A stretch of DNA of 58,163 nt from assembly GCA_021791695.1 (NCBI GenBank), contig JAJYWC010000010.1, positions 1 to 58,163 on the forward strand, given 5' to 3'. This DNA comes from an archaeon. Lineage in GTDB: Archaea > Thermoproteota > Nitrososphaeria > Nitrososphaerales > Gagatemarchaeaceae. Made by a program: the position numbers and the translations under genes. The notes beneath the pieces were generated by a model. That model was given only the letters and a program-made list of their open reading frames with translations. It had not been told where the DNA came from and did not search any database. This document shows, piece by piece, positions 8,916 to 54,200 of this stretch; the stretch's first letter is position 1; each line of letters opens with the position of its first letter.

Positions 8916-9070
8916 GGGGTCTGGAGCACCTGGTCCCGGGCACGTCCTTTCACCCTGAGGCGCATCTTCGAGGCGGCGATAGCCAGGGCGAGACCGGGGA
9001 GCATGATGAAGGCCGGCGGACCGTACCTCTCTCGCATGACAAGATCAGCCCAGAAAGACAACCTCATACT
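8912..9070 (-). pseudogene. 3' stump of a membrane-associated glycan-cluster gene
   Basis: An open frame continues from inside the vapC 3' end to a TGA that overlaps the GTG of the next GT4 by four bases. It encodes SFWADLVMRERYGPPAF, a hydrophobic helix IMLPGLALAIAASKM and a short basic tail. The four-base coupling overlap is what intact genes of this operon show, so this looks like the real C-terminus of a gene whose body was lost when the vapBC module arrived. It is too short for a family assignment. GT2 enzymes often end in similar hydrophobic segments, but that is only an inference. Confidence 0.4.
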
Positions 9071-9497
9071 CCCTCGTGAGTTCGGTGAAACGGGCTGCCA
9101 TCTCCCTCTCCTTCGTCCTGAAGAGGGCCCTGCCATTGTTGATCCTCGCCCCGGCCAGCACGTACGAATCGGTGAGCGCCAGGCCGAACCTCTGCTTGAC
9201 CTCCCCGGCGAGGAGCGCCAGGTCGAGCGAGGGCTCAGCGAGCGTGATGTTCGGGGAGGCGTAGATCCATTCCACGAGCCTGCGAGCCCTCTCCGTAGCC
9301 CCAGTGAGACCGAGCCTCTGGTATATCCGGCACGAGACGTAGAAGGTCTCTGCGAGCACCTCGTGAGGAACGAGCGCGGTCAGCTTGCCCGCCAGGATGC
9401 GCCCCATCACCGCATCCGCCTCCCGGTGAAACCTCCCTGCGAGGTCAATGTATTCCGCGATCACCCCAGTGTCCAGCGAGACGGGGACGGAGTTCAA
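9045..9497 (-). CDS. vapC: VapC-type PIN-domain ribonuclease toxin
   Basis: A 150-residue PIN domain. The first acidic residue is in SLDTGVIAEY near the N-terminus. HEVLAETFYVS carries the middle acidic residue, LALTDSYVLAGARI the third, and RTKEREMAARF the C-terminal acidic cluster. PIN toxins cleave RNA with a metal held by these residues. The start overlaps the antitoxin stop by four bases, the usual VapBC arrangement. The 3' end overlaps the remnant of a truncated glycan gene, which implies that the module was inserted there. Confidence 0.88.
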   Translation of the reverse strand: MNSVPVSLDTGVIAEYIDLAGRFHREADAVMGRILAGKLTALVPHEVLAETFYVSCRIYQRLGLTGATERARRLVEWIYASPNITLAEPSLDLALLAGEVKQRFGLALTDSYVLAGARINNGRALFRTKEREMAARFTELTREYEVVFLG

Positions 9498-20091: not shown

Positions 20092-20100
20092 TATATATAA
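20092..20100 (+). promoter_or_regulatory. TATA box of the Lrp/AsnC gene
   Basis: TATATATAA centred about 38 bases before the ATG at 20134 gives a predicted leader of about 12 bases. It supports ATG 20134 over the in-frame TTG 20113. Confidence 0.75.
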
Positions 20101-20133
20101 GTCATGTAAATATTGCAACGTCGGCGTCTTCAA

Positions 20134-20601
20134 ATGGGAAAACTTGACGAGATAGACATGAAGATACTCGGTTCGCTGCACAAGGACGCGTCCGTGTCAA
20201 TCCCCAAGCTGAGCAAGGACCTCGGTCTCAACCTCTCCGTAACCTACAGCAGGATAAAGCGGCTCTCGCGGAGAAAAATTATCAAGCAGTTCACGATAGT
20301 CGTGGACGAAGAGAAACTCGGCTTTCCGGCGTCTGCTGTGGTCGGAGTGAACCTCGACCCCAAGCAGCGCGACCAGGCGCTAGCCGAGATGTCCAAGCTG
20401 GAGCAGGTCAGGATAATCCAGGAGGTCACGGGAAGGTTCGACGCTTTCGTCACGGTCAGGGGGAAGACGATAGAGGAGATCTACAAGATCGTGGCCGAGG
20501 GCATCGGGAAGGTCCAGGGTGTGAATCAGGCCGAGACTTTCGTCCGCGTCGAGACGCTTAGGCCGGAAGTCAACTACAAGATTGCCGCCAACAGCGGTTG
20601 A
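20134..20601 (+). CDS. Lrp/AsnC family transcription regulator
   Basis: A 155-residue protein. MGKLDEIDMKILGSLHKDAS leads into the N-terminal winged helix, where IPKLSKDLGLNLSVTYSRIK is the helix-turn-helix. The C-terminal half is the RAM ligand-binding domain: FPASAVVGVNLDPKQRD, IQEVTGRFDAFVTVRGKTIE with the conserved G-x-x-D core, and a final strand. Members bind DNA as dimers or octamers and respond to amino acids. The start follows from the TATA box at 20092-20100. The metalloprotease-like gene begins 36 bases downstream and may be cotranscribed. Confidence 0.93.
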   Translation: MGKLDEIDMKILGSLHKDASVSIPKLSKDLGLNLSVTYSRIKRLSRRKIIKQFTIVVDEEKLGFPASAVVGVNLDPKQRDQALAEMSKLEQVRIIQEVTGRFDAFVTVRGKTIEEIYKIVAEGIGKVQGVNQAETFVRVETLRPEVNYKIAANSG

Positions 20602-20637: not shown

Positions 20638-21327
20638 TTGGACCCGTTTGTCGTGCTGGACCAGTCGGTGGCACAGGGTAAGCTGAAGCCCGCCTTCGCG
20701 ACGAAGGTCAGGTCGAGGGCCAGGTATCTCACCGGCGCGGTCAGCAGGGTCGAGAAGGCCTCCGGGATCGCGTATCCTCCGTACTACGTCGAGCCGTCTC
20801 TGCCGGTCGCGACGTCCTCTGTGGAGTTCGGCAGCGTGGGCGCGCTCTACGCGAGGGTGATACCAGCTAGCTTCGAGGGGAGGCTCTCGATAATCGTCCA
20901 GTTCACGGCGCCCCTGCTGCTCTTCGGTCTCAAGGGGACGATCGAGGCGGTGGCCGCGCACGAGTTCACCCACTACATCGACCTCGTGAGGAGGTTCAGC
21001 CAGATGCAGCTTTCGAGCGACGAAAGGGCAAGCACGCTGTATGAGGCCGGATACGCTGACGAGGAGAGGCTGGTCGAGCCCGCGTCGGTGCTCGGCGCCG
21101 ACAAGAAGCTCGTGGCCCTCGTGAGGAAGAAGTTCGCGGCGGGGCTGGTGGACGAGAAGCTCAACGAGAAGGTCGCCGGGGGATGGATCGAGAAGGGCCT
21201 TCCCACGAAGAGGGTCTCGCCCGAGGAGAACGCCGTGAGCGTTAGCGTGGCCACCATCGCGAACACGAGCTTCGACCCCGCGGTCATCGCAAAGATAGCC
21301 GAGCTGGGAGGCAGGAAGCAGGCCTGA
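20638..21327 (+). CDS. Small zincin-like metalloprotease (HExxH), function unknown
   Basis: A 229-residue protein starting at TTG 20638, since no ATG precedes the conserved part. VAAHEFTHYIDLVRRF holds HEFTH at residues 108-112, the zinc-binding and catalytic motif of gluzincins and metzincins. A third ligand may be among the acidic residues in EAGYADEERLVEP about 30 residues later, as in minigluzincins. No signal peptide or membrane helix is present, so it should be cytoplasmic. It lies between lrp and the nucleotidyltransferase-kinase gene in the same orientation. The reaction and target are unknown. Confidence 0.7.
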   Translation: MDPFVVLDQSVAQGKLKPAFATKVRSRARYLTGAVSRVEKASGIAYPPYYVEPSLPVATSSVEFGSVGALYARVIPASFEGRLSIIVQFTAPLLLFGLKGTIEAVAAHEFTHYIDLVRRFSQMQLSSDERASTLYEAGYADEERLVEPASVLGADKKLVALVRKKFAAGLVDEKLNEKVAGGWIEKGLPTKRVSPEENAVSVSVATIANTSFDPAVIAKIAELGGRKQA

Positions 21328-21383
21328 CGGACAGGCTCACGGCGGAGGAGAAGGAGGGTCTCATCGACCTCGCCGAAGGGCTC

Positions 21384-22949
21384 GTGAACGGGGAAGTGAC
21401 GTCGGTCACCGCGTACGGGTCGAAGGTCGCGGGGTACTCGAGGCCGGATTCCGACTATGACCTGATAATAACTGCACCCAAGTTCAATGGAAGGGTGCGC
21501 TACAAGTACGTCGACGAGCCGATCAAGGCTTCCGCGCTGATAGTAAAGGACGACCTTTTCAGGAGCGACGCGAAGAAGGCGTCCCTCGGGGAGTTCGTCT
21601 CGGGGAGGCTCCTAAACGTGCACCAGCCGCTGCTCAACGAACCCTTCGTGCGGGAGGCGGAGGTGGAGAGCAAGAAGAGGGTGATTGCTGAGTCGCTCTA
21701 CGAGGTTTCTTCCCAGTACGGCGAGTTCTCGCAGGACCTCACCATCCCTCTTGACTATTTCCTCTTCGACAAGCTCCACAAGCGGGCGCTGATCTATCCG
21801 CCGGTGATCTACAGCTACATCAAGACGTACACCTGCGACAAGGCGGCAGAGAACAGGGCAATCTCGCTGGACGGCTTTTCGGCGGCGGCCAAAAGCCTGG
21901 CGGAGCAGGGGTTCTTCGAGGTGAGAGGGGGCACCGTCCACATCGTCTCGGACAAGCTCCGCGGGAAGGCGTTTGCGCGGCTTCTTGCTCTGCTGAACCT
22001 GACGACCAGGGGGGTGAGGCAGTACGCCGTCCACGGGTACGCGGGAAGGGTCAGGCTGTCCGTGGTGAAGGACGAGGCGCTCTCGAAGGCGAAAAGGATG
22101 CAGCGGAAGCTCGAGCCGCCGCCCGAGATGGAGCATCCCAAGAACCTCCTCAGGCTGGAGGAGGGCTTCGTCGTGAGCAGGACCTCAGAGCTCATCCAGA
22201 GGCTCGCAGAGGAGAACGGATTCGCAAGATACGACTACCAGTCGAAGAGCCTGGGGCTGGTCTACTCCACGGCAAGGGTAGTCACCATCAGCGGGGGCGG
22301 AAGCGCCAGGTACGTCTTCAAGCACTTCGCCGACATACGCTCGGTGAAGTGGGCGTTCCTGAACATCTGGGCGCCCGGGATGAAGTTCAGCATGTCCCCC
22401 CAGGCGAGGATGCACAGGGAGTACTATGCGGGCATCAGGCTGAGGACGGCCGGCGTCAGGACCGCGAGCGTGGTGGGGGCGGCCGTGGACGACAAGGTGC
22501 TCGCGAAGGAGTTCGTCGAGGGAAGGCAGCTGTCTTCCTACGTCGAGAAGCTGCTCAGGGACGGCAGCTCGGACTCCAGCCAGGTCCGCATGTTCGGGGA
22601 AGACCTCGGGAAGATCCACAGGGCGGGGATGGCGATCGGAGACGCCAAGGCCGAGAACGTCATAGTCATGGAGGACGGACTCTGCTTCACGGACCTAGAG
22701 CAGACGGTGCAAAACGGCGACCCCGCGTGGGACATCGCCGAGTTTCTTTACTACGCGGGCAAGCTCTCGCTCAGGGTGGACGGAATCAGGGCCGTGGCGG
22801 ACGCCTTCCTGGACGGTTACGTGAAGGTAGGCGGGGTGCAGGACGTGGCAAAGGCGAAGGCTTCCAAGTATCTCACGCCGTTCAGGCCCTTCGTCACGCT
22901 CCAGAACCTCAAGGCCATCAAGGAGTCGCTAGAACGGCACGCGTCCTAG
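21384..22949 (+). CDS. Fusion of a Pol-beta nucleotidyltransferase and a Bud32-like kinase
   Basis: A 521-residue protein as drawn from GTG 21384. The frame is open upstream and encodes a plausible helix (LTAEEKEGLIDLAEGL), so the true start may be a non-standard codon near 21325. Residues 8-30 hold GSKVAGYSRPDSDYDLII, the GS and DxD of minimal nucleotidyltransferases. The middle has winged-helix-like sequence. The C-terminal 200 residues are Bud32/RIO-like: DDKVLAKEFVEGRQL, GEDLGKIHRAGMAIGDAKAE with catalytic Asp and Asn (ENVIV), and LCFTDLEQT in the DFG position. Bud32 belongs to KEOPS (tRNA t6A), but Kae1 is not in the window. The gene converges with rps27ae. Confidence 0.8.
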   Translation: MNGEVTSVTAYGSKVAGYSRPDSDYDLIITAPKFNGRVRYKYVDEPIKASALIVKDDLFRSDAKKASLGEFVSGRLLNVHQPLLNEPFVREAEVESKKRVIAESLYEVSSQYGEFSQDLTIPLDYFLFDKLHKRALIYPPVIYSYIKTYTCDKAAENRAISLDGFSAAAKSLAEQGFFEVRGGTVHIVSDKLRGKAFARLLALLNLTTRGVRQYAVHGYAGRVRLSVVKDEALSKAKRMQRKLEPPPEMEHPKNLLRLEEGFVVSRTSELIQRLAEENGFARYDYQSKSLGLVYSTARVVTISGGGSARYVFKHFADIRSVKWAFLNIWAPGMKFSMSPQARMHREYYAGIRLRTAGVRTASVVGAAVDDKVLAKEFVEGRQLSSYVEKLLRDGSSDSSQVRMFGEDLGKIHRAGMAIGDAKAENVIVMEDGLCFTDLEQTVQNGDPAWDIAEFLYYAGKLSLRVDGIRAVADAFLDGYVKVGGVQDVAKAKASKYLTPFRPFVTLQNLKAIKESLERHAS

Positions 22950-22958
22950 CGCGCCGGC

Positions 22959-23240
22959 TTACTTGTTCTTGAATGTCGTAAACCCGCAGTGGCCGCAGCT
23001 CAGCCTGTCCTTGTGCTCGGCCATGAAATAGCCCTTTCCGCACCGGGGGCACTCCTTGCGCAGCCGCGTGGCGGCCTCTCCCTCCAGCTTGTAGAGCTTC
23101 CAGACCTGTACGTTGGCCTTTGGTTTCTTCTCCTTGCGCTCCTTCTTTACCTTCGGCGCCGCTGCCTCTCCCTCGGCGGGAGCTGCGGCGGGGGCGGGCG
23201 CAGGGGCTGGAGCTGGAGCGTTCTTTGGGTTATTGGACAA
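22959..23240 (-). CDS. rps27ae: 30S ribosomal protein S27ae
   Basis: A 93-residue protein. The C-terminal half is the S27ae zinc ribbon: [20 protein letters not shown], then [19 protein letters not shown], two CxxC pairs that bind zinc. The N-terminal 35 residues are an Ala/Pro-rich then Lys-rich extension ([15 protein letters not shown]), longer than the usual archaeal protein of 50-60 residues. It may be a disordered tail. It is the second gene after rps24e, six bases apart, which is the standard archaeal order. Its 3' end is nine bases from the convergent kinase gene. Confidence 0.93.
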
Positions 23241-23246
23241 TGACTA

Positions 23247-23579
23247 TCACTTCGCCGGCGCGGCGGTCTCGGCCTTCTTCTTGGCGGCCTTCAGGGCTTC
23301 CTTCTCCTCCTTGGTGAGAAGTCTGACGGAAAGGTAATTGTGACTGACCTTCTTCTTTTCGTCCTCGGAATCGTAGACGTGGAAGCGCCCCACGAGTGCC
23401 CTTGAACCCGACTCAGGGGAGAGGCGGATGAGGGTTATCTTGCCCTCGCTCGTGTTCAGGGCCTGGGCGACCTCCTTGATCGCATCTTTGCGGTTCAAGG
23501 CACCCGCCTTGTCCGCGAAAAGGACCTCTAACTCCGACCTTCCGAGGAGTTTCGAGTCCTTCCTTGTTACTATCTCCAT
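23247..23579 (-). CDS. rps24e: 30S ribosomal protein S24e
   Basis: A 110-residue protein with the S24e sequence: MEIVTRKDSKLLGRSELEVL, KDAIKEVAQALNTSEGKITL, then SRALVGRFHVYDSEDEKKKV and a Lys-rich C-terminus. It binds the small subunit and precedes rps27ae. The TATA box on the minus strand at 23607-23616 puts transcription start only about six bases before the ATG. Confidence 0.95.
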   Translation of the reverse strand: MEIVTRKDSKLLGRSELEVLFADKAGALNRKDAIKEVAQALNTSEGKITLIRLSPESGSRALVGRFHVYDSEDEKKKVSHNYLSVRLLTKEEKEALKAAKKKAETAAPAK

Positions 23580-24507: not shown

Positions 24508-24515
24508 CATTTATT
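24508..24515 (+). promoter_or_regulatory. TATA box of the vapBC operon
   Basis: CATTTATT lies about 30 bases before ATG 24541, so the vapB mRNA is predicted to be leaderless. This favours ATG 24541 over the in-frame start at 24514. Confidence 0.6.
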
Positions 24516-24540
24516 GGCATGCGCGTGTATTGCATTGCAA

Positions 24541-24795
24541 ATGCCCGTTATCACCGTGAGAGTGGATGAGCAGCTCAAGAGGAAGATGGACGGGCTCAAA
24601 GAGGTCAACTGGAGCGAGGTGATGCGGGCGGCCATCGAAGAGAAGGTGCGGGATACCGAGATGTGGAGGCGCGTCGACGCCGTGAGGCTGAGGCAGGCTT
24701 CCGCAGATACAGACGAGCTAAGAAGGAAGATAGAAGGATGGAACGGTGCCGCTGAGATCAGGAGATGGCGTTCGCGTGTCAGCGATAGTCTCTGA
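24541..24795 (+). CDS. vapB: VapB-type antitoxin, ribbon-helix-helix
   Basis: An 84-residue protein. MPVITVRVDEQLKRKMDGLK is the beta-strand and first helix of a ribbon-helix-helix DNA-binding domain, and VNWSEVMRAAIEEKV is the second helix. The C-terminal part (DELRRKIEGWNGAAEIRRWR) would bind the toxin. The pair should repress its own promoter. The gene overlaps the vapC start by about 20 bases. Confidence 0.82.
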   Translation: MPVITVRVDEQLKRKMDGLKEVNWSEVMRAAIEEKVRDTEMWRRVDAVRLRQASADTDELRRKIEGWNGAAEIRRWRSRVSDSL

Positions 24796-25213
24796 TGCCT
24801 CGGTAATTGTCAAGTGGTTCGTCGAGGAAAAGCACTCGGAGCAGGCCCTCAGGCTCAGGGACGACCAGGTAGAGCAGAGGATCAGGATTGTCGTCCCGTC
24901 GCTCGCGGGCTACGAGGTCCTGAATGCGCTCCGCTACTCCGGGAGCTTTGGTGTGGAGGAGCTAGTCGAGGCGTCGGGGATCCTGGAAGGATACCAGTTC
25001 TTGGAGGTGAGTATGAGCGGCCGCGGCGCGGAGGAGGCGCTAAGGATAGCCCTTGACTATGGAGTGACCGTCTACGACGCTGCCTACCTTTCGATAGGGA
25101 AGCTGAGGGGGCTCGAGGTCTACACGGCTGACGAAGAGTTGCTGCGCAAGGTGAAAAAGCTTGGAGTCGCGCGGCATGTGAAGGAGTATCCCCGGGTCCG
25201 CAGTCGACGGTAA
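24776..25213 (+). CDS. vapC: VapC-type PIN-domain ribonuclease toxin
   Basis: A 145-residue protein from GTG 24776 (GTG 24746 is an alternative). IVSDASVIVKWFVEEKHSE has the first acidic residue, PSLAGYEVLNALRYSG the second, VTVYDAAYLSIGKLRGL the third and YTADEELLRKVKKLGV the last acidic residues. All four PIN-domain acidic positions are kept, so it should be active. It lies immediately downstream of and overlapping its RHH antitoxin. Confidence 0.9.
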   Translation: MSAIVSDASVIVKWFVEEKHSEQALRLRDDQVEQRIRIVVPSLAGYEVLNALRYSGSFGVEELVEASGILEGYQFLEVSMSGRGAEEALRIALDYGVTVYDAAYLSIGKLRGLEVYTADEELLRKVKKLGVARHVKEYPRVRSRR

Positions 25214-28543: not shown

Positions 28544-28909
28544 CTACAGCGATACCCGGCCGCCACTCAGGGATACCACCCTGACGTTGGAAGCCTTCAG
28601 CTGACGGATGAGCTCCCCGTCCAGGGTAGCGACGAAGGCGTCGTCTCCCAGCGCGAGCGAGACCAGCTCGTCGTCGGCGCTGCCGCTCCCGACCGCCTTT
28701 TCGAGCTTGAGCTCGCCTCTGTCGACCATGTCCTTCGCAACCGAGGCGTACCTGGCGGCTCGCCCGTTGCCTCGGGACAGCCTGACGAGCTCGTCGTAGA
28801 CGGTGTCGATGACGACAGCATCGAAACTCCCCAGCCGCTCGAGCATGTCCTCGCGCCAGGGTGTCGGGCGCTCCATGACGGCGATAAGGAAGCTGCTGTC
28901 GAAGAGCAC
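28544..28909 (-). CDS. PIN-domain protein of the aIF2-gamma operon (Fcf1/COG1412-like)
   Basis: A 121-residue protein from GTG 28909, 14 bases after the aIF2-gamma stop (the frame is open to 28957 inside that gene). VLFDSSFLIAVMERPTPWR has the first acidic residue, AVVIDTVYDELVRLSRG the second, SGSADDELVSLALGD the third and FVATLDGELIRQLKAS the last. Its fixed place after aIF2-gamma in many archaea suggests a housekeeping RNase role, perhaps in rRNA processing, rather than a toxin. No antitoxin is adjacent. Confidence 0.85.
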   Translation of the reverse strand: MLFDSSFLIAVMERPTPWREDMLERLGSFDAVVIDTVYDELVRLSRGNGRAARYASVAKDMVDRGELKLEKAVGSGSADDELVSLALGDDAFVATLDGELIRQLKASNVRVVSLSGGRVSL

Positions 28910-28923
28910 CCTTCGGTGGGGCG

Positions 28924-31900
28924 CTACTTTACGATGCCCGACCCGATCAGGCGCCATCTTTCGGCAATCCTCCTGCTCAGCGCTACGCGCGAGCCCTTCT
29001 CGGCAACGACCGGCTTGCGCAGGTCCACCTCCGCCACCGTGTCCCTGGCCGAGGTGACAGTGCCGAGGGTGGCGGCCGTCCCGATGTTGAGCCTTAGCGA
29101 CTCGCCTACCCTGACCTTATCTACCTTGAGCATCTCTGACGAGCCCACCGCCTGCTCGAAGAGCTGCAGCTCAATGGTGATGTGGGTCTTCGCTGAAGGG
29201 AGGGAGCCGGGCTTACCGAGGAGGCTGCCGACCATCAGGTCGCCCTTGGTGAGGGCCGGGTCGAGGTAAGTCCCGAGAGAGACCAGCCCTCCAGGCCCGA
29301 CCTTCTCCGCCATACCCACGCCCGTGCCGAGGCTCGCGACCTTCGTTATGAGGGGTGCGTACTTTCCGCGGTCGTCAGCCAGCCCCGGTGAGATCTCGAC
29401 CTCGTCCCCGACGCTGAGCTGCCCCCTGGTAACGCTCCCCCCGAGCACGCCTCCCACCAGCGCTGAGATGTCCGTCCCCGGCTTGTTCACGTCGAAGCTC
29501 CTGAGGACCACCATCCGTGCATCGGCAGAGGCATCCCTCTGCGGCGTGGGGATCTTCTCCTCAATCGCCTCGATCAGGGCGTCGATGTTTATCCTGTGCT
29601 GAGCGGAGACCGGGATTATCGGCGCGTCGGCCGCTATCGTCCCCGATAGGAAGTTCTTGATGGCCTCGTGGTTCTTCCTCGCGCCCTCCGAGTCCACCCT
29701 GTCTATCTTGTTCTGGACTATGACCATCTTCTTCATGCCGAGCATCTGGAGGGCGAGCATGTGCTCCCTGGTCTGGGGCATGGGTACGGGCTCGTTCGCA
29801 GCGATCACGAGGATGGCCCCGTCCATCACAGCGGCACCCGCCAGCATGTTGGTCATCAGGCTCTCGTGTCCTGGAGAGTCGACGAAGCTCACAGTCCGCA
29901 GAAGCTGCGTCTCCTGGCCGCACACGGGACAGACTGGGGAGGTGGAGTATGCCTCGGGCGGAGGCGTGTGCGCGCACTTGTAGAATGCGGCGTCCGCGTA
30001 GCCGACCTTGATCGTGATACCTCGCTTCAGTTCCTCGCTGTGAGCGCTGGCCCAGACGCCTGTTATCGCCGCTACCAGGCTGGTGTTGTGGCACACCGTC
30101 GCCCCCTTTCCCGCCACGAAGTTGGCATATTCCGGGACCGCCAGGTCGTAGACCAGACCGCTGTACTCCTCCCTCTTCACCCCGACTATCTTGTCGAACT
30201 CGAGGGAGGACCCGGCCAGGGTCCTGAGCTGCTCAAGCGCTGCGTTGGATGTCCTGAGGGTCGAGGCGGTCGAGACCCTCAGGTGGTCGGCTATGGCCCG
30301 GAGTTCGGCGCCCGAGCCGTCTCTGAGTATTCTTGCGAGCTTCTTTCTGCTGTATCCTAGTCTACTCGCCACGGCTTGGAGCGACGAGGAAGTCAGTTCC
30401 ATGTGCCGCCTGAGGCGGGTCCCGTCCGGAGAAAGCCGGGCTAGCGACTGCTCGACTGCCCCGAGGTGCTGATCGACAGAGTCGATCACCATCAGCAGCT
30501 TTGTCCTTGAGATCCTTCCGGTCTTCGCAGCCCCCTGATAAGCCCCATACCACGGAGCACCCTTCATGTTCGGTATCGCCAGATTCCCTTCGAAGCTCTC
30601 CCTGAGCAGTCCGGAGCTCCTGAACAGAGACCGGAGGGTCTCAACGGCTATCGGGATGCTCATGTCCGTTTCTTTGGTCTGCTTCGGAATTCTGTCGAGG
30701 TAGCTCTTCAACCTGTGTTGGACGCGCGCGTCCTCGAACCCTATCACATCGGCGAAGAGCCTCAGGTCCCTGCGCCCCGAGATCGTGATGCGGCCGTATT
30801 CCTTCAGGCCCTTCTTGGTCCGGCTCTTCTTCACGGAGAACCTTGGGACGATTCCGAACGACTGCAGCAGATACCCGATGATGACTATGTTCTTCTCGTT
30901 GAGCTGTGAGACCATGACCTGCCCCGAGCGTGGGTTGAACTCGCCGTCGAGCGTCAGGAACGCGCGAAGGAAAGCCGCCTTGAGCTCCTTCGGAAGCCTG
31001 CAGACCCAGTCTGCGATTCCGCACCTTGTCTCGTCACCCGGAACGAACCCGAACCTCAACCGCAGGTAGTCTACGAATGGCTTGTTGAATATGGCGAAGG
31101 CCCCCCTTGGGTAGCTCTTCACATTCTGTCCAAGTCTCTCTTCGGTAACCCTAAGGAAATCCCGGAGTATGGCCCGCTGTACGGTCTGCGTTACCGCGAC
31201 TGAGTTGGGTCTGCTGGTGCCTTCTGCCCACACGAACGCGAACCACCTCGCAATGTCTGAGTCGACTCCTGCGATGTGCCTCAGCCTCCTTATCGGCCTG
31301 GTTCGCCCGTGTCTCTGCTCGAGCAGGAACTCGTCCTGCCTGAGGAGGTACCGGGGTCCGGACTTGAAGACCTCCACCACCCTCCGCCTCTCGTCGGAAG
31401 TCGGAGTCCTCGCAGCCTGCGCTATCTTGGAATAGGAGCCGCGGCCGACCCGGGCAAGGACGGACAACCTACTCCTGGAGAGCCCGGTCAGCATCCTCAT
31501 CTTCTCGAATTCGGCGGCCGGCAGTCCGGAGAAGTCCGAAAATCCAGAGGTCAGAGACCTGAGCCTCTCGTAGTCGTCCCAGGTGACGACCTCGTAGAGT
31601 TTCTTGAGCTCGGGCATAGGGTCAGGGAGAGATACGGACTCCTCCAGGGGCACCCGGGACAGGAAGGTCGCGTAGTCACCCGGGCGTATGTCCCTGGCCT
31701 TGACCCACTGCAGCGTCCCTCTTCTGTTGACCAAAAGCGGGTGTTCGGGCGTCACCGTGAGCGACCGGCCGGACTTTCCCGAGACGGTGAACATTGGACC
31801 TGAATAGTCCTCGACGTAGAACATCGACGCCGCTTTCACGGCTTCGAGCTTCGCGTTCAGGCTCACCACGCTGTTGCCGTCGAAACGATAGACCTCTCCG

Positions 31901-32100
31901 CCGTCCACTCGGCTGAGCAGCGTTCCCGTCGTCTTTACCGCTCTGAGTATGTCCGAGCCCGTTACTGGGACGCCGTCCAGCAGGACGTACTGGTCGATCC
32001 TTTGACACTTGCCGTGGTCGACGTGGCCGCTGGTCCCGATGTTACACTCGGGCTGCTTCGGGATACGCCTTATCGGGACTGTCTCTGTCGCTTGCTCCAT
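28924..32100 (-). CDS. eif2g: Translation initiation factor aIF2 subunit gamma, intein-containing precursor
   Basis: A 1058-residue precursor that should splice to a 417-residue GTPase. The N-extein is residues 1-31, ending in the P-loop GTSGHVDHGK. The intein is residues 32-672. The C-extein resumes with TSLVAAITGVWASAHSEELK and includes the zinc motif region CAHTPPP...CPVCG, FVDSPGHESLMTNML (G3), VQNKIDRVDS (NKxD) and the two beta-barrel domains. aIF2-gamma carries initiator tRNA to the ribosome with GTP. It is flanked by rps6e upstream and a PIN gene downstream, the usual archaeal order. Without splicing the P-loop is split and the factor cannot work. Confidence 0.95.
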   Translation of the reverse strand: MEQATETVPIRRIPKQPECNIGTSGHVDHGKCQRIDQYVLLDGVPVTGSDILRAVKTTGTLLSRVDGGEVYRFDGNSVVSLNAKLEAVKAASMFYVEDYSGPMFTVSGKSGRSLTVTPEHPLLVNRRGTLQWVKARDIRPGDYATFLSRVPLEESVSLPDPMPELKKLYEVVTWDDYERLRSLTSGFSDFSGLPAAEFEKMRMLTGLSRSRLSVLARVGRGSYSKIAQAARTPTSDERRRVVEVFKSGPRYLLRQDEFLLEQRHGRTRPIRRLRHIAGVDSDIARWFAFVWAEGTSRPNSVAVTQTVQRAILRDFLRVTEERLGQNVKSYPRGAFAIFNKPFVDYLRLRFGFVPGDETRCGIADWVCRLPKELKAAFLRAFLTLDGEFNPRSGQVMVSQLNEKNIVIIGYLLQSFGIVPRFSVKKSRTKKGLKEYGRITISGRRDLRLFADVIGFEDARVQHRLKSYLDRIPKQTKETDMSIPIAVETLRSLFRSSGLLRESFEGNLAIPNMKGAPWYGAYQGAAKTGRISRTKLLMVIDSVDQHLGAVEQSLARLSPDGTRLRRHMELTSSSLQAVASRLGYSRKKLARILRDGSGAELRAIADHLRVSTASTLRTSNAALEQLRTLAGSSLEFDKIVGVKREEYSGLVYDLAVPEYANFVAGKGATVCHNTSLVAAITGVWASAHSEELKRGITIKVGYADAAFYKCAHTPPPEAYSTSPVCPVCGQETQLLRTVSFVDSPGHESLMTNMLAGAAVMDGAILVIAANEPVPMPQTREHMLALQMLGMKKMVIVQNKIDRVDSEGARKNHEAIKNFLSGTIAADAPIIPVSAQHRINIDALIEAIEEKIPTPQRDASADARMVVLRSFDVNKPGTDISALVGGVLGGSVTRGQLSVGDEVEISPGLADDRGKYAPLITKVASLGTGVGMAEKVGPGGLVSLGTYLDPALTKGDLMVGSLLGKPGSLPSAKTHITIELQLFEQAVGSSEMLKVDKVRVGESLRLNIGTAATLGTVTSARDTVAEVDLRKPVVAEKGSRVALSRRIAERWRLIGSGIVK
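30085..32007 (-). mobile_element. Intein with LAGLIDADG endonuclease in aIF2-gamma, P-loop insertion
   Basis: A 641-residue intein between Lys31 and Thr673 of the precursor. The first residue is Cys32 and the end is CHN before Thr, all the residues needed for splicing. LTVTPEHPLLVN (about residue 114) is block B. Two endonuclease motifs are visible: SDIARWFAFVWAEG near 280-294 and FLRAFLTLDGEFN near 377-389. Between the endonuclease and the C-terminal splicing blocks (GLVYDLAVPEYANFVAG) are about 150 residues with helix-turn-helix-like sequence (LQAVASRLGYSRKKLARIL), which may be DNA-binding. The motifs look intact, so it may still be mobile. Confidence 0.93.
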
Positions 32101-32545: not shown

Positions 32546-35500
32546 TCAGAACCCGTACATCATATCCTTGACCGAGCGGATGGAGATTATCTCGTTGAGG
32601 GCCTCCTGGTCGTCCTCCTTCAGCGTGCCGGCGAGCTCCCCCTTCAGCAGCTTCACGTCGTGGGAGGTCGGGAAGCTGTAGAGCGAGTCGTTCTCCCGGA
32701 TCTGCCTCCCGAGGGTCGGCCCCCGGACCGATATCGCCACCTGCATCCCCTTGGTCGCTTCCTGGACGGGCTTTGCGTTCTCCTGTATCTGCTCCACCGT
32801 ACCAAGCTCCACGCCCGATGAGTCCATCAGGCGGACCTTGGGTTTCAGCCTCCCGGCGACCACCTCGACCCCGAACACGGCGGGGTCGTTCCTGCGGAAG
32901 AACATCCCGGGAAGGGCCTTCAGCTTCGCCGGAGGGACTATCGTGGAGAGCACGCTGCGCTCGTCATGCTCGCGCTTCGTCGCCGCCCACTGGACGTATC
33001 CCTCTATCGCGTCGTAGATCACGTCCGAGGTGATTATCTGCGCCTTGGCCGCCGCTTCCTTCGCCTCCGGCACGACCTTCACGTCGAACCCGATGATCGC
33101 ACCGAGGTACGGGTCGTGTTCCGCCACGGCCTCGGCCTCGATCATGTCCCTCTTCGTGATGTCGCCGATGTCGGCCATCCTGACGGGGATCTCCCGCTGG
33201 TCGAGCATCCGGATGAGCGCCTCGAGACCGCCGATGTTCCCCGCCTTGACTATCACGCCGTCGATGTCGACCTTCGACACAAGCGTCCCCAGGTCCTTCT
33301 CCGCTTCGCTCTTTATCGTCTGGAACTCCTTCTCGTCATGGAAGGCTATGACCGACGTGCCCGGTATGACTCCGTCCAGTTCGGTCGAGACGAGCTTCAC
33401 GCCCGCCGCCGAGTAGACCTCCTGGACGGGGGTGAACTTGTCGCGAGGATCCCTCATCTCGTCGAGCGGCTTGGGCATGAAGAGCGCCTTCACCTTTGAC
33501 GCTATCGCTCCATCGCGTCTTACCAACACTATCTTATCGCCGACGGCGAGCCTCCCCTCCGTGAGTATGATGTTGGCGGTCTGGCCTATTCCCGTCTCCT
33601 CCTGCAGCTCGAGGATTATTCCGCGCGCCCTGCCCTTCTCGTCGACGGCGACCAGCTTCTCGGAGAGGAACTGCTGCGCCAGTCCTATCAGGACGGCCAG
33701 CAGCTCTGGCATCCCTACCCCGTATCTGGCGGATATCGGGACGATTGAGACCTGCTTGCGGAAGTCCTTCACCCTGTAGAACGCATCCGAGTCGAAACCG
33801 AGCCTTGAGAGCCCGCCGACTACGTTGTAGAGGCGCTCCTCAAGCTCGTCGCTCCACTGGGGCGGCTGCTCCTTTATGACGCTGGCGAGGTACCCCTTCG
33901 ACTCCTTCCTCCAGCCCTTGATCATGTCCACCTTGTTCAGGGCTACGAGGAAGGGGACCTTTCTCTGCTTGAGTATCTCGATGCTCTCGAGTGTCTGGTT
34001 CTCGAGCCCCTTCAGGACGTCCACGAGCACTATTGCGATGTCCGCCGCCGACCCTCCTCGCATCCTCAGGTTCGAGAATACTTCGTGCCCCGGGGTGTCA
34101 ATGATCAGGAGGCCAGGGATTTTGAGCTGGGCCCCCGTCTTGTTCATTATCTGGCCGGAGATCGATGTCAGCGTCTCCATCGGGAAGAAGCTGGCCCCGA
34201 TCTCCTGGGTTATCCCGCCGGCCTCCCTTCCCTGGACGCTAGTACCGCGAAGCTTGTCCAAGAAGCTTGTGTTGTGGATGATGAGGCCGTTCGCAAGGAA
34301 GTTATGGCAGTCGTCAACGGTGAAGTCATAAACGAAACACCCTCCTTGAATCTCCTCCACGGAAGTGACCTGAACGGTAGCGAAGTCCTCAATCAGCCTC
34401 TGAGCGGACTGGTTCTCATAGGTCGGTACGACGGATGGCAGTCTCCTGAGCACATATCTGCTGAGCTTCTGGTGCGCTTCGGAGCTGGTCAGCTGGAACT
34501 GGTCATCCCATATGGCCCGGTTGGAGTCCATGACAGACCTCAGGAAGTCGCCCGGAATCGGAGTTGTGTCGAAGACTCGATTTGTCTCCGAACTAGACAG
34601 GGTCCTTCTTGCACAGAGCATCTTCTCCTTGTCCTTGAAACCCACATGCTTGAGGAAAGCAGAGATGTTGTCCTTTCCGCTGATGAAAATCTCCCGGGAG
34701 CGAGTCTTCTTTCCGGAATAGGACAGGCATCCGAACCGTTGCAGCAGCATCGGGAGCTGCTTCATGAGCATCCGACTCTCGCAACCCGCACCGACGTACT
34801 TCCCTTCCTGGACGAAGCCTTCCGCGTCAAAGAAGCCGCGCAAGAACGCCGCTACCTGAAGGTCGGGCATGATGGAGACGAGCTCGGGGATCCTCAGGTT
34901 CCTGGTCTTGTCACTCTCGGGATACTCGAAGGCCTCGGTCAGGAACCTTGCGAGGGTCTTGCCCCCTCTGTGTGAAACGATGCAGAAGGACCTGCGCCAT
35001 GCTCGGCTCGCTCCCACCCCGAAGGCTGACATCAATGAGTCCAGGAAAGCATCCATTATGCTGTCGGAGGAGTTGGCCAAGTCGCCACTTCCGGCAACAC
35101 CATCCCCATACAGCAGGCCGACGACATAGGAGAGCGACTCAAAGCCCCGGCCATCCCTCGGCAGTCTTATCCACGGAGACCCCTGTGAGGCCCGGCGCTT
35201 TGGCGAGGAGAATCTTATTCCTTCCACGGAGTCATAAGCCAATGCGAGCGGGATTCCCAGAGACGCAGCGAGTTTGCGGAAGGCGCCAGCCCGATAGTAG
35301 CCTTGCCTAACATGAAACATCAACTCTTTGTCTCCAATCTCGGCTCCGACCCTCTCGCGACCTCCCCGGGAGAAGTCAGCTATCCGTTTGTTCAGGGAAG
35401 AAGAGACTCTGACAAGGAAGTCGTCCGAGAGCCTGAGCAGAATCTCGGACTTTAAGTTGAGGAGGTCGCCTTCGGCGGTGCAGGTCTTCGAAGGGAGAAC

Positions 35501-35908
35501 CAGGCGGTCGCCCAATGCGAGATTCTCCGCCTCGACGTATCTCAGCTCGCCCTCCTTCGACATCGACAGGAACTTGTGCTCAGGAGTACACTTTACTGAA
35601 TAGCCGGCCTTCGTCGAGACGTTGACGAGCCTGTCCGTCTTGAGCTTCCAAACGTGCGAGACCTTTCGTGGAGCAACGTTTCCCTCTTTGTCTACCGAAA
35701 TCACGCGCAGGTCTCGCGCCTCGTAGACCTCGCCATCCGGCCGATGCGACGCTGCACCGGTCTTGTAGGTCTCGAAGACCTGCCTCGCTTCAAGAATCCT
35801 TCCACCCGCCAGCTGGATTAGCGTGTCTTCACTGACACATTTGCCCGCGTCGGTGTGCCCTAGTACGACGACTACCGGTTGACGCAGGGGCTGCGCGGGT
35901 TGGGACAC
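32546..35908 (-). CDS. infB: Translation initiation factor aIF5B, intein-containing precursor
   Basis: A 1120-residue precursor expected to splice to 597 residues, the normal size for archaeal aIF5B. The N-extein (1-23) starts at GTG 35908 and ends GHTDAGK. The intein is residues 24-546. The C-extein begins TSFLDKLRGTSVQGREAGGI and has FPMETL, IIDTPGHEVFSNLRMRGG (G3), VALNKVDMIKGW (NKxD), then domains II-IV. The P-loop reads GHTDAGKT instead of the common GHVDHGKT. aIF5B promotes subunit joining. It is the first gene of the rps6e/aIF2-gamma block and has its own TATA box. Confidence 0.95.
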   Translation of the reverse strand: MSQPAQPLRQPVVVVLGHTDAGKCVSEDTLIQLAGGRILEARQVFETYKTGAASHRPDGEVYEARDLRVISVDKEGNVAPRKVSHVWKLKTDRLVNVSTKAGYSVKCTPEHKFLSMSKEGELRYVEAENLALGDRLVLPSKTCTAEGDLLNLKSEILLRLSDDFLVRVSSSLNKRIADFSRGGRERVGAEIGDKELMFHVRQGYYRAGAFRKLAASLGIPLALAYDSVEGIRFSSPKRRASQGSPWIRLPRDGRGFESLSYVVGLLYGDGVAGSGDLANSSDSIMDAFLDSLMSAFGVGASRAWRRSFCIVSHRGGKTLARFLTEAFEYPESDKTRNLRIPELVSIMPDLQVAAFLRGFFDAEGFVQEGKYVGAGCESRMLMKQLPMLLQRFGCLSYSGKKTRSREIFISGKDNISAFLKHVGFKDKEKMLCARRTLSSSETNRVFDTTPIPGDFLRSVMDSNRAIWDDQFQLTSSEAHQKLSRYVLRRLPSVVPTYENQSAQRLIEDFATVQVTSVEEIQGGCFVYDFTVDDCHNFLANGLIIHNTSFLDKLRGTSVQGREAGGITQEIGASFFPMETLTSISGQIMNKTGAQLKIPGLLIIDTPGHEVFSNLRMRGGSAADIAIVLVDVLKGLENQTLESIEILKQRKVPFLVALNKVDMIKGWRKESKGYLASVIKEQPPQWSDELEERLYNVVGGLSRLGFDSDAFYRVKDFRKQVSIVPISARYGVGMPELLAVLIGLAQQFLSEKLVAVDEKGRARGIILELQEETGIGQTANIILTEGRLAVGDKIVLVRRDGAIASKVKALFMPKPLDEMRDPRDKFTPVQEVYSAAGVKLVSTELDGVIPGTSVIAFHDEKEFQTIKSEAEKDLGTLVSKVDIDGVIVKAGNIGGLEALIRMLDQREIPVRMADIGDITKRDMIEAEAVAEHDPYLGAIIGFDVKVVPEAKEAAAKAQIITSDVIYDAIEGYVQWAATKREHDERSVLSTIVPPAKLKALPGMFFRRNDPAVFGVEVVAGRLKPKVRLMDSSGVELGTVEQIQENAKPVQEATKGMQVAISVRGPTLGRQIRENDSLYSFPTSHDVKLLKGELAGTLKEDDQEALNEIISIRSVKDMMYGF
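34271..35839 (-). mobile_element. Intein with LAGLIDADG endonuclease in aIF5B, P-loop insertion
   Basis: A 523-residue intein between Lys23 and Thr547. It opens CVSEDTLIQLAGGRILEA (block A with catalytic Cys). VKCTPEHKFLS near 105 is block B. SYVVGLLYGDGVAG (about 260-273) and AAFLRGFFDAEGFVQ (about 353-367) are the two LAGLIDADG helices. CFVYDFTVDDCHNFLANG and IIHN before Thr are the C-terminal blocks F and G. All splicing residues are present. It occupies the same P-loop position as the intein in aIF2-gamma, although the two inteins differ greatly in length and in the sequence I can compare by eye. Confidence 0.94.
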
Positions 35909-40867: not shown

Positions 40868-42136
40868 TTGTTGGACCCGGGGCGGCAAGACGAGTGGAAA
40901 GAGCGGCTTATCGCCTACGTTCTCGAACACGGTGACAGCCTTGAGTTCACGAGGCACTTCTGGAAAGGTTGCGAGCCTATTGAGGTTGAGGTAATTCAGT
41001 ACCACAAATTCGCAGCCGCCACCAGACTTGCTGCAGAAGGCCGAGATGATGAAGCCATTGCGCTAGAGCTTGACTCTGGGAAGTCGACAATCTATACCTG
41101 GAGAACTCTCCGACAAATGCCCAAGTTCGGACACTTCCTCAGGATGCTAACGACCCGGGGCTTGCCTGCCGAAGGCAAGGTTTGGTTAGCCACCGAGACA
41201 TCACATGGTCATGGTGTCCCTGTCGGAAAATTTATTCAGGTCCCCATGGTCGTCAATACATGGAATGACATAGAATCAGTGCTAATTCAACTCAGCGACT
41301 TGAACCAACCAAAGCCCACGAGGACACGCGAGTACCTGCTTGGATTCCTTATCGGCATCATCATGGGTGACGCCGCCAAATCCAAGTCAAGGGAAGGGGC
41401 GAGCCATCGACACATAGCCCTGGTTTTAAGCAAGAAATATGCCACCAATCTGCTCATTGGCGAATTCGCATGCGTTAGTGCAAAGAGCATTGGACTTCGG
41501 ATGCATCGGGTCAACGACCTAGCCAAGCCTCCTCACAAGCCATTTGGCTTCTACGAGTGGGTCTCCCAAGCGTCACCTCTAGTCGACTGGATTTACAATA
41601 TCGCGCTGGGACTCAAAGATGGTCAGCTCACAACTTACGACCCTGTCCACGCCGACTGGATGCTGCAATCTCCAAGGGATTTCCGGATTGGGGTCATTAA
41701 CGGTATTGCGGAATCTGATGGTTCAGTCGCAATCGCGAGTCAGGAGGTCGAATTCTGGGTTGACCCACATCGAGACCTGTTGAAGAAAATGCTTGAGCTC
41801 GAGGGACTCCGTGCGTTTAACAACAGGCAAGCACTATCGCTTTCCAAGACTCACGCAATAAAATCGTTCGAAGTGCCCATTTTCAATCCAGAACTTCGAA
41901 CGGTCAGATATCAAAGACATGAAGTAATGGCGAAAGCAAGGACGCTCCGAAGAGACGAAAGACTTCCCGAAGAACTCAAACTAGAAATAATCGCGCTGGC
42001 AACCCAGAACCTCTCCGTCCCCGACATCGTGGAAAGAATCGCAGAGACACGGAAGATTCTAATCTCGTTCGAGGCGGCGCAACGGTGGGCCTCGAAGGCG
42101 TCGAGGGACGGAACGACTAGTGAACGGCCCCAATAG
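40868..42136 (+). CDS. Free-standing LAGLIDADG homing endonuclease
   Basis: A 422-residue protein from TTG 40868 or TTG 40871. A TATA-like CTTAAAT at 40842-40848 predicts a leaderless mRNA. It has two endonuclease motifs, [20 protein letters not shown] (about 155-174) and [20 protein letters not shown] (about 272-291), each with the acidic residue that holds the metal. An N-terminal segment ([20 protein letters not shown]) and a C-terminal one ([20 protein letters not shown]) look like helix-turn-helix units. No intein splicing blocks are present. It is more A/T-rich than its neighbours. It is convergent with rps28e and overlaps it by 20 bases, so it was probably inserted at that gene's end. 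Confidence 0.85.
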
Positions 42137-42854: not shown

Positions 42855-43286
42855 TCATTCTTCAGCTGGTCCGGAGGCGATGACCTCAGACGGCTCAGCA
42901 CGCTTGAGGTCCAGGCCGTCGAAGTCATGGTCGAAGCTCACTATCGCCTCGACCCCCAGTTTCTTCGCGAGATAGTACTGCAGCGAGTCGTCGAAGTCCC
43001 GGCCGAGAGACCTGGCAAGGAGCGAAGCGGCGATCTCGTCTGACAGGTCGGTGTCGTGTACCGAGAGCCCCAGAGAGTTCTCGATGGTTCTGAGAAACTC
43101 CACGAGCCCTGGGCCGCTCCCGATCTGAGCCTCGACCGCGTGGACGGTGAAGTGCGAGACGACGGCCTCCAGCTCGCCCGCCGAGACCTTCTTCAGCAGG
43201 GCCTTGCACTCTCCCGCCTTCTTCTGGTCCAGCAGCACCTCGAGAAAGACGTTCGTGTCTATGAGAATCAATCCACCTTCGACCAT
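42855..43286 (-). CDS. vapC: VapC-type PIN-domain ribonuclease toxin
   Basis: A 143-residue PIN protein. LILIDTNVFLEVLLDQKKAG has the first acidic residues, SHFTVHAVEAQIGSGPG the second, GRDFDDSLQYYLAKKLGVEA the third and VSFDHDFDGLDLKRAEP the C-terminal acids. All catalytic positions are kept. It overlaps its antitoxin gene by 19 bases. Confidence 0.9.
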   Translation of the reverse strand: MVEGGLILIDTNVFLEVLLDQKKAGECKALLKKVSAGELEAVVSHFTVHAVEAQIGSGPGLVEFLRTIENSLGLSVHDTDLSDEIAASLLARSLGRDFDDSLQYYLAKKLGVEAIVSFDHDFDGLDLKRAEPSEVIASGPAEE

Positions 43287-51242: not shown

Positions 51243-54200
51243 TCATCCTTCACTGGGATGCTTTCTCTTCTCAATGCTCGAAAGGCACCGCCGGAGCGCG
51301 ATCGTCGCCGATGTCGCAATCAAGAGGACAGACGAAGCCATGATGACCAAGTATTGCTGGCTTCCTCCTACAGCTACTCCCTTGACTGTCCCTGCAGGGG
51401 TTGTCGTGCCCGTCGAGCTTGCGAGCTCGTAGCTGACAGTGACACCGACCGGCACGCCTCTCATTATTACTGTTCCAGACTGAGGGTCTGGGAGGAAGGC
51501 GCCGCTGATACCCACCGAGTAAGTGTAATTCCCGTTAGGTTCGGTGAAGGTGATGAGGTCGCTAGTGGAATTCTTGACCACCCCCGAGAGCACGACACTC
51601 CAGCTCTCACCCAGCGCCAGACCGGACTCGACGAAGGACACCTGACTTCCATTGGGCGAGACCGGCTGGAAATGTATCACCTCGACCTCCGTTCCACGGG
51701 TGACAAGAAAGGTGCCAGACGATGGGCTTGCGACGTATCCAGGCACCGGTCCCACCGCGAAAGTGGACTCCCCAGACCACGCGACGGTGACCACGTTTGT
51801 TGAGTTGGAGACTTTCGGGATGCCATCAAGGGAGACAGACCAGGGAGTGCCCGCAGGCAGTCCGGACTCCGCAAAAATGACCCCGCTTCCGTTCACGTCA
51901 ACCAGATTCGATTGCGGGCTGTCTCCCATTGCATTGACAGCCACCACCGCGAAGTAATACTGTCCTGGCTGCGAGGCGCGATAGTCATAGCTAGTGGCTG
52001 AGCCGTTGAGTTCTGCCGCCGTGACCATGCTCTCGGAGCCGTTTCCCTCAAGTACATAATATCCGGTCACGTGGTAGGCTCCTGCCAGCTTCTCAGACCA
52101 GTCAAGTTGGATGTTCGAGCCCGAGGCGGAGAGACCAAGAGAGGGGGCTGGCGGCGGGGTAATCGGAAGGTAGGACACCTCGAGGTCGAGTAGAGGCCTC
52201 GTCGCATTCCCGTAGTTATCCAAAGCATAGATCGCGAGCGAGGAATTCACGAGGGAGCCGCCGTAACCCGAGGCGCCGTTGTAGGGAAGAGTAGCAAGCG
52301 TCCGGACGATCCCCCCTCCTACCTCCTGAACCGCGATCGAGCCGGGGGCGCCGACGAGAAAGAAGTAGGTGCCGTTGCTGCAGAATACCCGGAACGACGA
52401 TGTGTTGGTTCCAACGGAGTAACCCAATATATCCGAGCCCGAAGAAGCATTGTAGAGCTGGATTCGGTCGGACGAAGCGGAATGGTAGAGCACTGCCAGC
52501 GCAGATGACGGCCCGGCGCTTACGAGCTGGGCGTCCTGGACCGTGTATCCCTGTTTCGAGGGAAGGCCTGACGGCGAGAAGCTCGACAGGCCGAGGAGGC
52601 CGTAGGTACCGTTGAAGTACCTTAAGAGTGCCAGGTCGCTCTGCGCATTGAAGGACATGATTTGCGATATCCCGGAGGCGGAGAGATTCGCCAGCAACCG
52701 TCCCGTGCCGAGGTCGTACTCTATGACCGATTGTTGCGTCGAGAGCAAGTGGTCGCTCAGAATCACGAGCGCGTCTCCCCCAGAGGGCGTCGGACTGAGG
52801 GCATCAGAGATGGCCACCCTGCTCCCGGTGAGGTTCCTGACGCTTCCCCATTCACCTGTCGACGGTGTATAGTATGCGTACTGCGTCGTCACTGTACCGA
52901 GGGTGAATGGGCCGGTAGCACCGTTCAGTTCGCTTCTGGGCATAGAGTTCCACAACAGCGCAACGGTGCCGTTCGGCAACGTTATGGACCGGGGATTGAA
53001 AGCGACTGAGTTGCCGTCCACCGGTACTTTCAACCTGCTGACCGCCAAGTTTGATGCGCCGAGCGCTAGCCCTTCAATGTACTGGCCCTCGTTCAGAGGC
53101 ATCGAGGTGTTATCCGAAGTGTAATAGATGTACGCTTCACCTCCCGAGGAGGTGGAAGACACGCGGGTGAATGGATAGATGTCTTCCACCGCTACGCCGC
53201 CTGAAGACCCGTTCTTCCAGACCATGCTGTCGTACGCGCTCCCGTAGTAGTATCGGGGGACGACTGTGATGTTCGCATTGCTGGCCGGCGGGTAGGAGGA
53301 CGGGTCTGACCCCCACTGATAAATCGTGCCCGGCCCTACAGAGTAGAACGTCCCCTGCCACTGTCCGAAATCCCAGCCTATGCTTATGGAACCCGTGACC
53401 TGCCCGCCCTCCTCGAATGGCTTCGAGGCGTTCAGGTGCACCTGAAAGGTCAGAGTTCCCTGTGCGTAAATACCGAACTGCTCGATTTCATCCAGGCCGG
53501 CGAAGACCGTCACCGAGACCGGGACTGTCATTGTGCCCATGAGTTTCTCGACCATGAGCTCGACCCCCTGGACGGCCTCCTGGGACGGGACGTTTGTTGG
53601 GACGAGCGTGTATTCAAGCGAAACACTCGGACTTACCGTGACCTGGACCTGTATCCCCAGCATGACCGATTCCCCGCTTCCGGAGCAGCACTTCGTCTCA
53701 TACGGGTTCATCGTCACAGAGGTGGACCCCCCTATGGTCATGTTGACCGCGGAGGACATCCAGCGGATGGTGCCTCCCGAGAGCTGAAGACTGCCGGTCG
53801 TGCGAACCTCAGCGTAGATGTATGCGTTGGCTGACCCGATGGTCATGCTGGGTGAACGGAAGGAATAGAACGAGTTCAGGTCAACTTGGCCTGACGAGGT
53901 CGCTGTGAGGTTCAGGGAGAGCTGCGGGACGAACCTGTAGGTCCCGTTTATGTAAGGGACCGGGATGTAGGCACTGAAGTAGCGTGACAGGTTGAAATTG
54001 TCCGCGAATTGAACAGTGTAGGAGTCGTTCCACGTCCCGGTCATCGTGTAGGTCGTCTGGTTGCTCCCCGACTCGTGAATGACAGAGCTGAACCACGGAG
54101 GTGGGTCGACAACGTCGAAGAGCAGCTCTGTCGTCAGTTCCGACCCGTTGGCGAACATTGCCTTCACGTGCATCGCCGAGCCCGTCTGCAGGCTCCCCAT

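Follow-up and report, generated by a model that had tools for sequence, protein, structure and literature searches.

A nucleotidyltransferase and Bud32-like kinase fusion that overlaps a predicted zincin gene in an archaeon and probably acts outside KEOPS

What is the role of a protein that joins a minimal nucleotidyltransferase (NTase) domain to a Bud32-like kinase and is encoded directly behind a putative zincin metalloprotease? The two genes lie in a stretch of 58,163 nucleotides (the window), which is contig 64 in a genome of 1.8 Mb and 72% completeness from the archaeal order Nitrososphaerales. A sequence-only reading of this locus had described a HEFTH zincin gene followed by the fusion and had raised a KEOPS role, a target that the fusion may nucleotidylate or phosphorylate and the protease may process, and Lrp control. 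The open reading frames are as it described them, and the Pfam, NCBIfam and structure-profile matches are above chance. The product of the second gene truly joins an NTase-like domain to a Bud32-like kinase domain and keeps the catalytic residues, and the zincin gene adjoins and overlaps this gene. A full-text search of the literature found no paper on this NTase-kinase fusion (NTK). To our knowledge, archaeal kinases are few, and most are without a known substrate.

What is probably one transcription unit opens with the gene for an AsnC/Lrp-family regulator (20134..20601, + strand), read here from ATG 20134 where the ORF list starts at TTG 20113. Its Pfam matches are HTH_24 (6e-9), HTH_AsnC-type (3.4e-8) and AsnC_trans_reg (3.1e-9). 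A TATA-box-like sequence, TATATATAAG, is read directly in the DNA 5' of this gene (20092..20101, +). Inspection of the window sequence by eye gave no TATA-like element between the Lrp and zincin genes or between the zincin and NTK genes, so a single transcript of all three is plausible. The zincin gene (20638..21327, +) has a TTG start and encodes 229 amino acids. NTK follows (21324..22949, +; 541 amino acids) and is convergent with the gene for ribosomal protein S27ae (22959..23240, -; PF01599, 3e-20), behind which lies the gene for ribosomal protein S24e (23247..23579, -; PF01282, 3.4e-12). The position of both ribosomal protein genes is conserved. Of the loci mapped, two have an Lrp gene immediately 5' of the zincin gene, that of the window and that of G338, a genome of the same family. 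In families f2 and f4, which may be the ammonia oxidisers Nitrosopumilaceae and Nitrososphaeraceae, the genes upstream of the zincin are Pus10, SRP54 and diphthamide synthase. The zincin-NTK pair itself is found in three families. Lrp control is a reading of gene adjacency; in the other families that have the pair, no Lrp gene was seen directly 5' of the zincin.

The start of NTK needs revision. The listed start, GTG 21384, would drop the first helix, preceding the NTase strand, and alignments with homologues of the family begin at residue 2-5 when the longer frame is read. In G338, a TTG overlapping the zincin stop (TTGA) is the sole in-frame start in this part of the sequence. Seven further loci of the family show TTGA in five cases and ATGA in one, in the NTK frame, and in the seventh the zincin gene is directly upstream without an in-frame overlap. 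An NTGA overlap is thus found in the window and in seven of the eight family loci inspected, and the eighth pair is still adjacent. Since the CTGA of the window is homologous to the TTGA and ATGA of its relatives, translation of NTK most likely begins at CTG 21324, overlapping the zincin stop. In two other families, the zincin and NTK frames overlap or are closely spaced (six loci). This arrangement of stop and start makes the two genes look translationally coupled, and their overlap makes co-expression likely in the window's order.

The zincin is a metalloprotease by prediction. Its HExxH zinc site, HEFTH (20959..20973, +; residues 108-112), has H108, E109, F110 and H112 invariant in 15 of 15 homologues, and the homologue alignment offers E136 and D141 as candidate third zinc ligands. 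The HExxH motif is common to DA1-like (PF12315) and SprT-like (PF10263) peptidases, which some zincin homologues match weakly (7/15 and 5/15, best E 0.0016 and 0.04), whereas the window zincin itself matches neither, nor any other Pfam or NCBIfam family. A sequence search against solved structures returned nothing credible for it. Single-sequence AlphaFold models of the zincin and of NTK (mean pLDDT 35 and 34) were made without an alignment and are unusable. Family f2 keeps the zincin in more than 60 genomes and has no NTK, so the zincin is independent of NTK; in the two f2 loci read, it directly precedes S27ae and S24e. It is conserved in the window's order and in two more families.

In a sample of 398 genomes of the phylum, some of them incomplete, the zincin is present in 95 and NTK or related kinases are matched in 216, a count that includes weak matches that are canonical Bud32. 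Of 46 genomes in the window's family, about 42 have a match that clearly exceeds the background set by Bud32, and the four without a clear NTK match are incomplete or contaminated assemblies. In the window's order, all genomes examined that have both zincin and NTK have them side by side; one genome (G014, family f7) has them on different contigs. The pairing is confined to this order, and a survey of 97 NTK loci found the zincin in 8. The commonest partner elsewhere is an RNase J-like metallo-beta-lactamase, encoded directly downstream on the same strand at 26 of the 97 loci, with a gap of -37 to 66 bases (L078, L085, L086, L094, L095, L169-L173, L177, L179-L182, L185-L187, L189-L191, L193, L194, L196, L199, L201). 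This hydrolase has the metallo-beta-lactamase motif and the SGH and PVHG-type motifs of RNase J-family beta-CASP nucleases, though its 88-100 bits against the RNase J model (TIGR00649) are far under the 400-bit cut-off. The genome of the window has a homologue that is unlinked to NTK (contig 32). The zincin and NTK might be unconnected neighbours, in which case NTK would serve some purpose of its own and the overlap would reflect compact genome packing. That each gene occurs without the other in most genomes, and that NTK has other neighbours in other lineages, speaks for this; we nonetheless doubt it, as the adjacency is kept in three families (about 30-50% identity) although the genes 5' of the zincin differ.

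The kinase domain (22236..22898, +) is assigned to the Bud32-like kinases by NCBIfam (arch_bud32, 2.5e-11), by a profile search against solved structures in which Bud32/KEOPS kinases are the top matches (7e-15), and by profile-profile comparison with Bud32 in hhalign (99.5% over 140 columns). In 27 homologues, Pfam reports APH, Pkinase, RIO1 and ABC1 with E down to 3e-10. The window protein has K333, E366, H432, the catalytic loop GDAKAEN (D440 to N445; 22638..22658, +) and the metal-binding DLEQ (D457 to Q460; 22692..22703, +), which replaces the DFG of Bud32. K333, H432, D457, E459, Q460, W469, D470 and Y499 are found in all 97 homologues, as is the D.EQ pattern; D440 is kept in 95 of 97 and N445 in 85 of 97. 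Conservation of the active-site residues of the kinase extends throughout the phylum. NTK has its kinase superfamily in common with the atypical kinases RIO1 and RIO2, and Pfam RIO1 matches 10 of 27 members, though the window protein scores under the Pfam cut-off and most other RIO/Bud32-like kinases of the sampled genomes are not on the NTK side of the tree.

Three side observations concern this kinase. In two f4 proteins (L074, L075), Asn replaces the catalytic Asp equivalent to D440 (GNxKPKN). Genomes of f4 also have a further kinase-only gene (L136-L138) on the NTK side of the tree. The kinase-only protein L155 of family f22 (229 residues) scores 99 bits against the NTK kinase profile and does not match the Bud32 of the window's genome. 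It may correspond to the uncharacterised Sulfolobus kinase SiRe_1639 / Saci_1477, which would make the latter a possible kinase-only relative of NTK. No autophosphorylation of SiRe_1639, the candidate homologue, was seen in vitro (PMC5682000).

The N-terminal NTase domain, of the polymerase-beta type, has the signature YGSKVAGYSRPDSDYDL (21414..21464, +), a Y-G-S-x10-D-Y-D arrangement with G32, S33, D44 and D46. The hG[SG]x9-13DhD motif of MNT / NTP_transf_2 enzymes is present in the window as YGSKVAGYSRPDSDYD. NTases of this group (MntA, AadA-type) have the G-S-x10-D-x-D motif in common with NTK, and the Pfam and NCBIfam matches are weak: NTP_transf_2 or Polbeta is matched in 14-17 of 27 homologues with E down to 2.3e-7, and the window NTase reaches 19.2 bits against a Pfam gathering score of 21. 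NTK differs from them in being fused to a kinase, and the third catalytic carboxylate was not found at the expected strand. At the aligned position stands K68 (acidic in 4 of 94), and where the family has V-D75 (76 of 95), the window has K75-D76. The GSKVAGY-SDYD stretch is kept in the window and in the eight family relatives inspected (9/9). A comparison with L226, the closest relative of full length, shows the NTase to be the best-conserved part, with 76% identity and a dN/dS of about 0.11 (dN 0.19, dS 1.76), compared with 61% and about 0.30 for the kinase (dN 0.30, dS 1.01), ratios that are rough because dS is near saturation; the zincin is 73% identical. The NTase of the window's family keeps both metal-binding aspartates and is strongly constrained. 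Across the 97 homologues, the strict motif is intact in about 28 and absent in about 69, and a fast kinase tree gives nine or more switches between the two states, so NTase chemistry is dispensable in parts of the NTK family. A generally degenerate NTase fits the homologues that lack the motif; the lineage of the window is excluded from this description by its kept motif and strong constraint.

Between the NTase signature and the kinase lies a middle region (21564..22223, +) with no recognised fold. It carries the family-wide residues D82, G89, E90, K117 and E123, and D82 is present in 95 of 95 homologues.

NTase-domain genes are also found beside NTK, convergent with it, at 16 of the 97 loci. 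These NTP_transf_2 genes usually come as two in tandem, encode 335-370 residues and often overlap the end of the NTK gene (L079, L087, L088, L092, L159-L162, L164, L207-L212, L215). Kinship between them and the NTase domain of NTK was considered and set aside as weak, at 60% with the intact-motif rows and 4.5% with all rows.

These family matches bear on the possibility that NTK acts on small molecules. Its kinase would phosphorylate a metabolite as APH or choline kinases do, and its NTase would adenylylate one, as in aminoglycoside-modifying enzymes. Of the 27 members, 15 match APH (best 3.4e-10), there are also Kdo matches and one to choline kinase, and the NTase has weak AadA/ANT matches in NCBIfam. 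Such an enzyme is unlikely, since the best family matches are to the protein-kinase-like Bud32, and NTK in the window's order adjoins information-processing genes with no biosynthetic cluster around it.

A toxin-antitoxin or conflict module is a still poorer fit. The NTase would modify and thereby silence a toxin-like zincin, much as MntA adenylylates HepT (PMC7641770), and the overlapping two-gene layout, the MNT-type motif of NTK and this precedent agree with such a scheme. We regard it as very improbable: NTK is near-universal in the window's family, the zincin is conserved and stands alone in another family, the pair has a fixed place adjoining ribosomal protein genes, and the neighbours of NTK are the zincin and S27ae, without a HEPN partner.

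Bud32 is an ATPase in KEOPS (PMC3814370), and its arginine-rich C-terminal tail (RGR) inserts into the cleft of Kae1 and is needed for t6A synthesis (PMC7718258). NTK has the kinase domain order of Bud32/PRPK (TIGR03724) and its catalytic Lys, Glu, Asp, Asn and Asp (K333, E366, D440, N445, D457). It has GDxKxxN and D.EQ where Bud32 has HGDLTTSN and DFG, some 300 extra N-terminal residues, and a gene that does not adjoin kae1. Against TIGR03724 it reaches 43.4/45.6 bits, under the 125-bit cut-off. The RGR tail is present in none of the 97 NTKs and in 29 of 31 Bud32 proteins. In a quick maximum-likelihood tree, whose reliability is limited by several long branches, a branch with support 92 separates the Bud32 rows from NTK. 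The genome has a separate canonical pair on contig 55, kae1 (53174-54145, 421 bits) and, directly behind it, a full-score bud32 (54175-54771, 211 bits), and canonical Bud32 is above the cut-off in 40 of 40 genomes checked. A CGI-121 search with the Pfam model gave no match in the 72%-complete genome and is uninformative, as the same model also misses the Sulfolobus acidocaldarius control.

The first proposal, in which the fusion would serve as Bud32 in this organism or assist KEOPS in t6A synthesis, has hardly any standing left: Bud32 is its nearest known kinase family by sequence and its gene adjoins translation genes, but the separate kae1-bud32 pair, the presence of Bud32 in every genome checked, the replaced signatures, the place outside the Bud32 clade and the missing tail rule it out as a KEOPS substitute. 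In these genomes, a short match to Bud32 is no sure sign of KEOPS. The sequence-only reading had held that a separate complete bud32 together with a loss of catalytic residues would argue against KEOPS; the separate gene is there, and the residues are kept. Because the residues are kept although a full bud32 exists elsewhere in the genome, NTK is probably active in another role.

The reading we prefer, at a probability of roughly 0.45, is that NTK is a widespread, uncharacterised Bud32-related kinase with an accessory NTase that probably regulates protein or RNA turnover. What stays constant in NTK is the kinase domain, which points to ATP-dependent phosphorylation or ATP hydrolysis as the core activity, and the recurring pairing with metal-dependent hydrolases suggests turnover as the process. 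NTK would be an ATP-using regulator that phosphorylates a turnover partner or acts on it through ATP hydrolysis in the manner of Bud32. The NTase may serve as a nucleotide-binding or nucleotidyl-transferring accessory module, with which some lineages could dispense. As a candidate partner, the zincin or a substrate of it would come first in the window's order, and the RNase J-like hydrolase encoded directly downstream would take that place in other lineages. Several points count against a turnover kinase, namely the restriction of the zincin pairing to one order, the more than 60 genomes that have the zincin and no NTK, the result with SiRe_1639, the Asn-for-Asp replacement in two NTKs, and K68. 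A stronger version, in which NTK is bifunctional, both phosphorylating and nucleotidylating its target, and is repeatedly paired with a metal-dependent hydrolase (the zincin in Nitrososphaerales, the RNase J-like nuclease elsewhere) as a kinase-controlled system of protein or RNA turnover that runs parallel to KEOPS and is distinct from it, is a long shot as a joint claim. NTK is nonetheless a well-defined, unexplained enzyme, with near-invariant kinase residues in many families and an NTase that is constrained here and lost elsewhere. Concrete candidate partners are at hand in the product of the overlapping zincin gene and, in other lineages, in the RNase J-like hydrolase.

The rest of the window holds other features. 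A 422-residue ORF (40868-42133, +) is without any Pfam match. Four PIN-domain proteins are encoded at 9048-9497 (-), 24746-25210 (+), 28547-28957 (-) and 42858-43286 (-); just 5' of the second is a small ORF (24514-24795), and the two resemble a VapBC pair. The genes for aIF2-gamma (28924-32100, -) and aIF5B (32546-35908, -) each contain an intein with a LAGLIDADG domain, placed in the GTPase P-loop at GHVDHGK/C and GHTDAGK/C, respectively.
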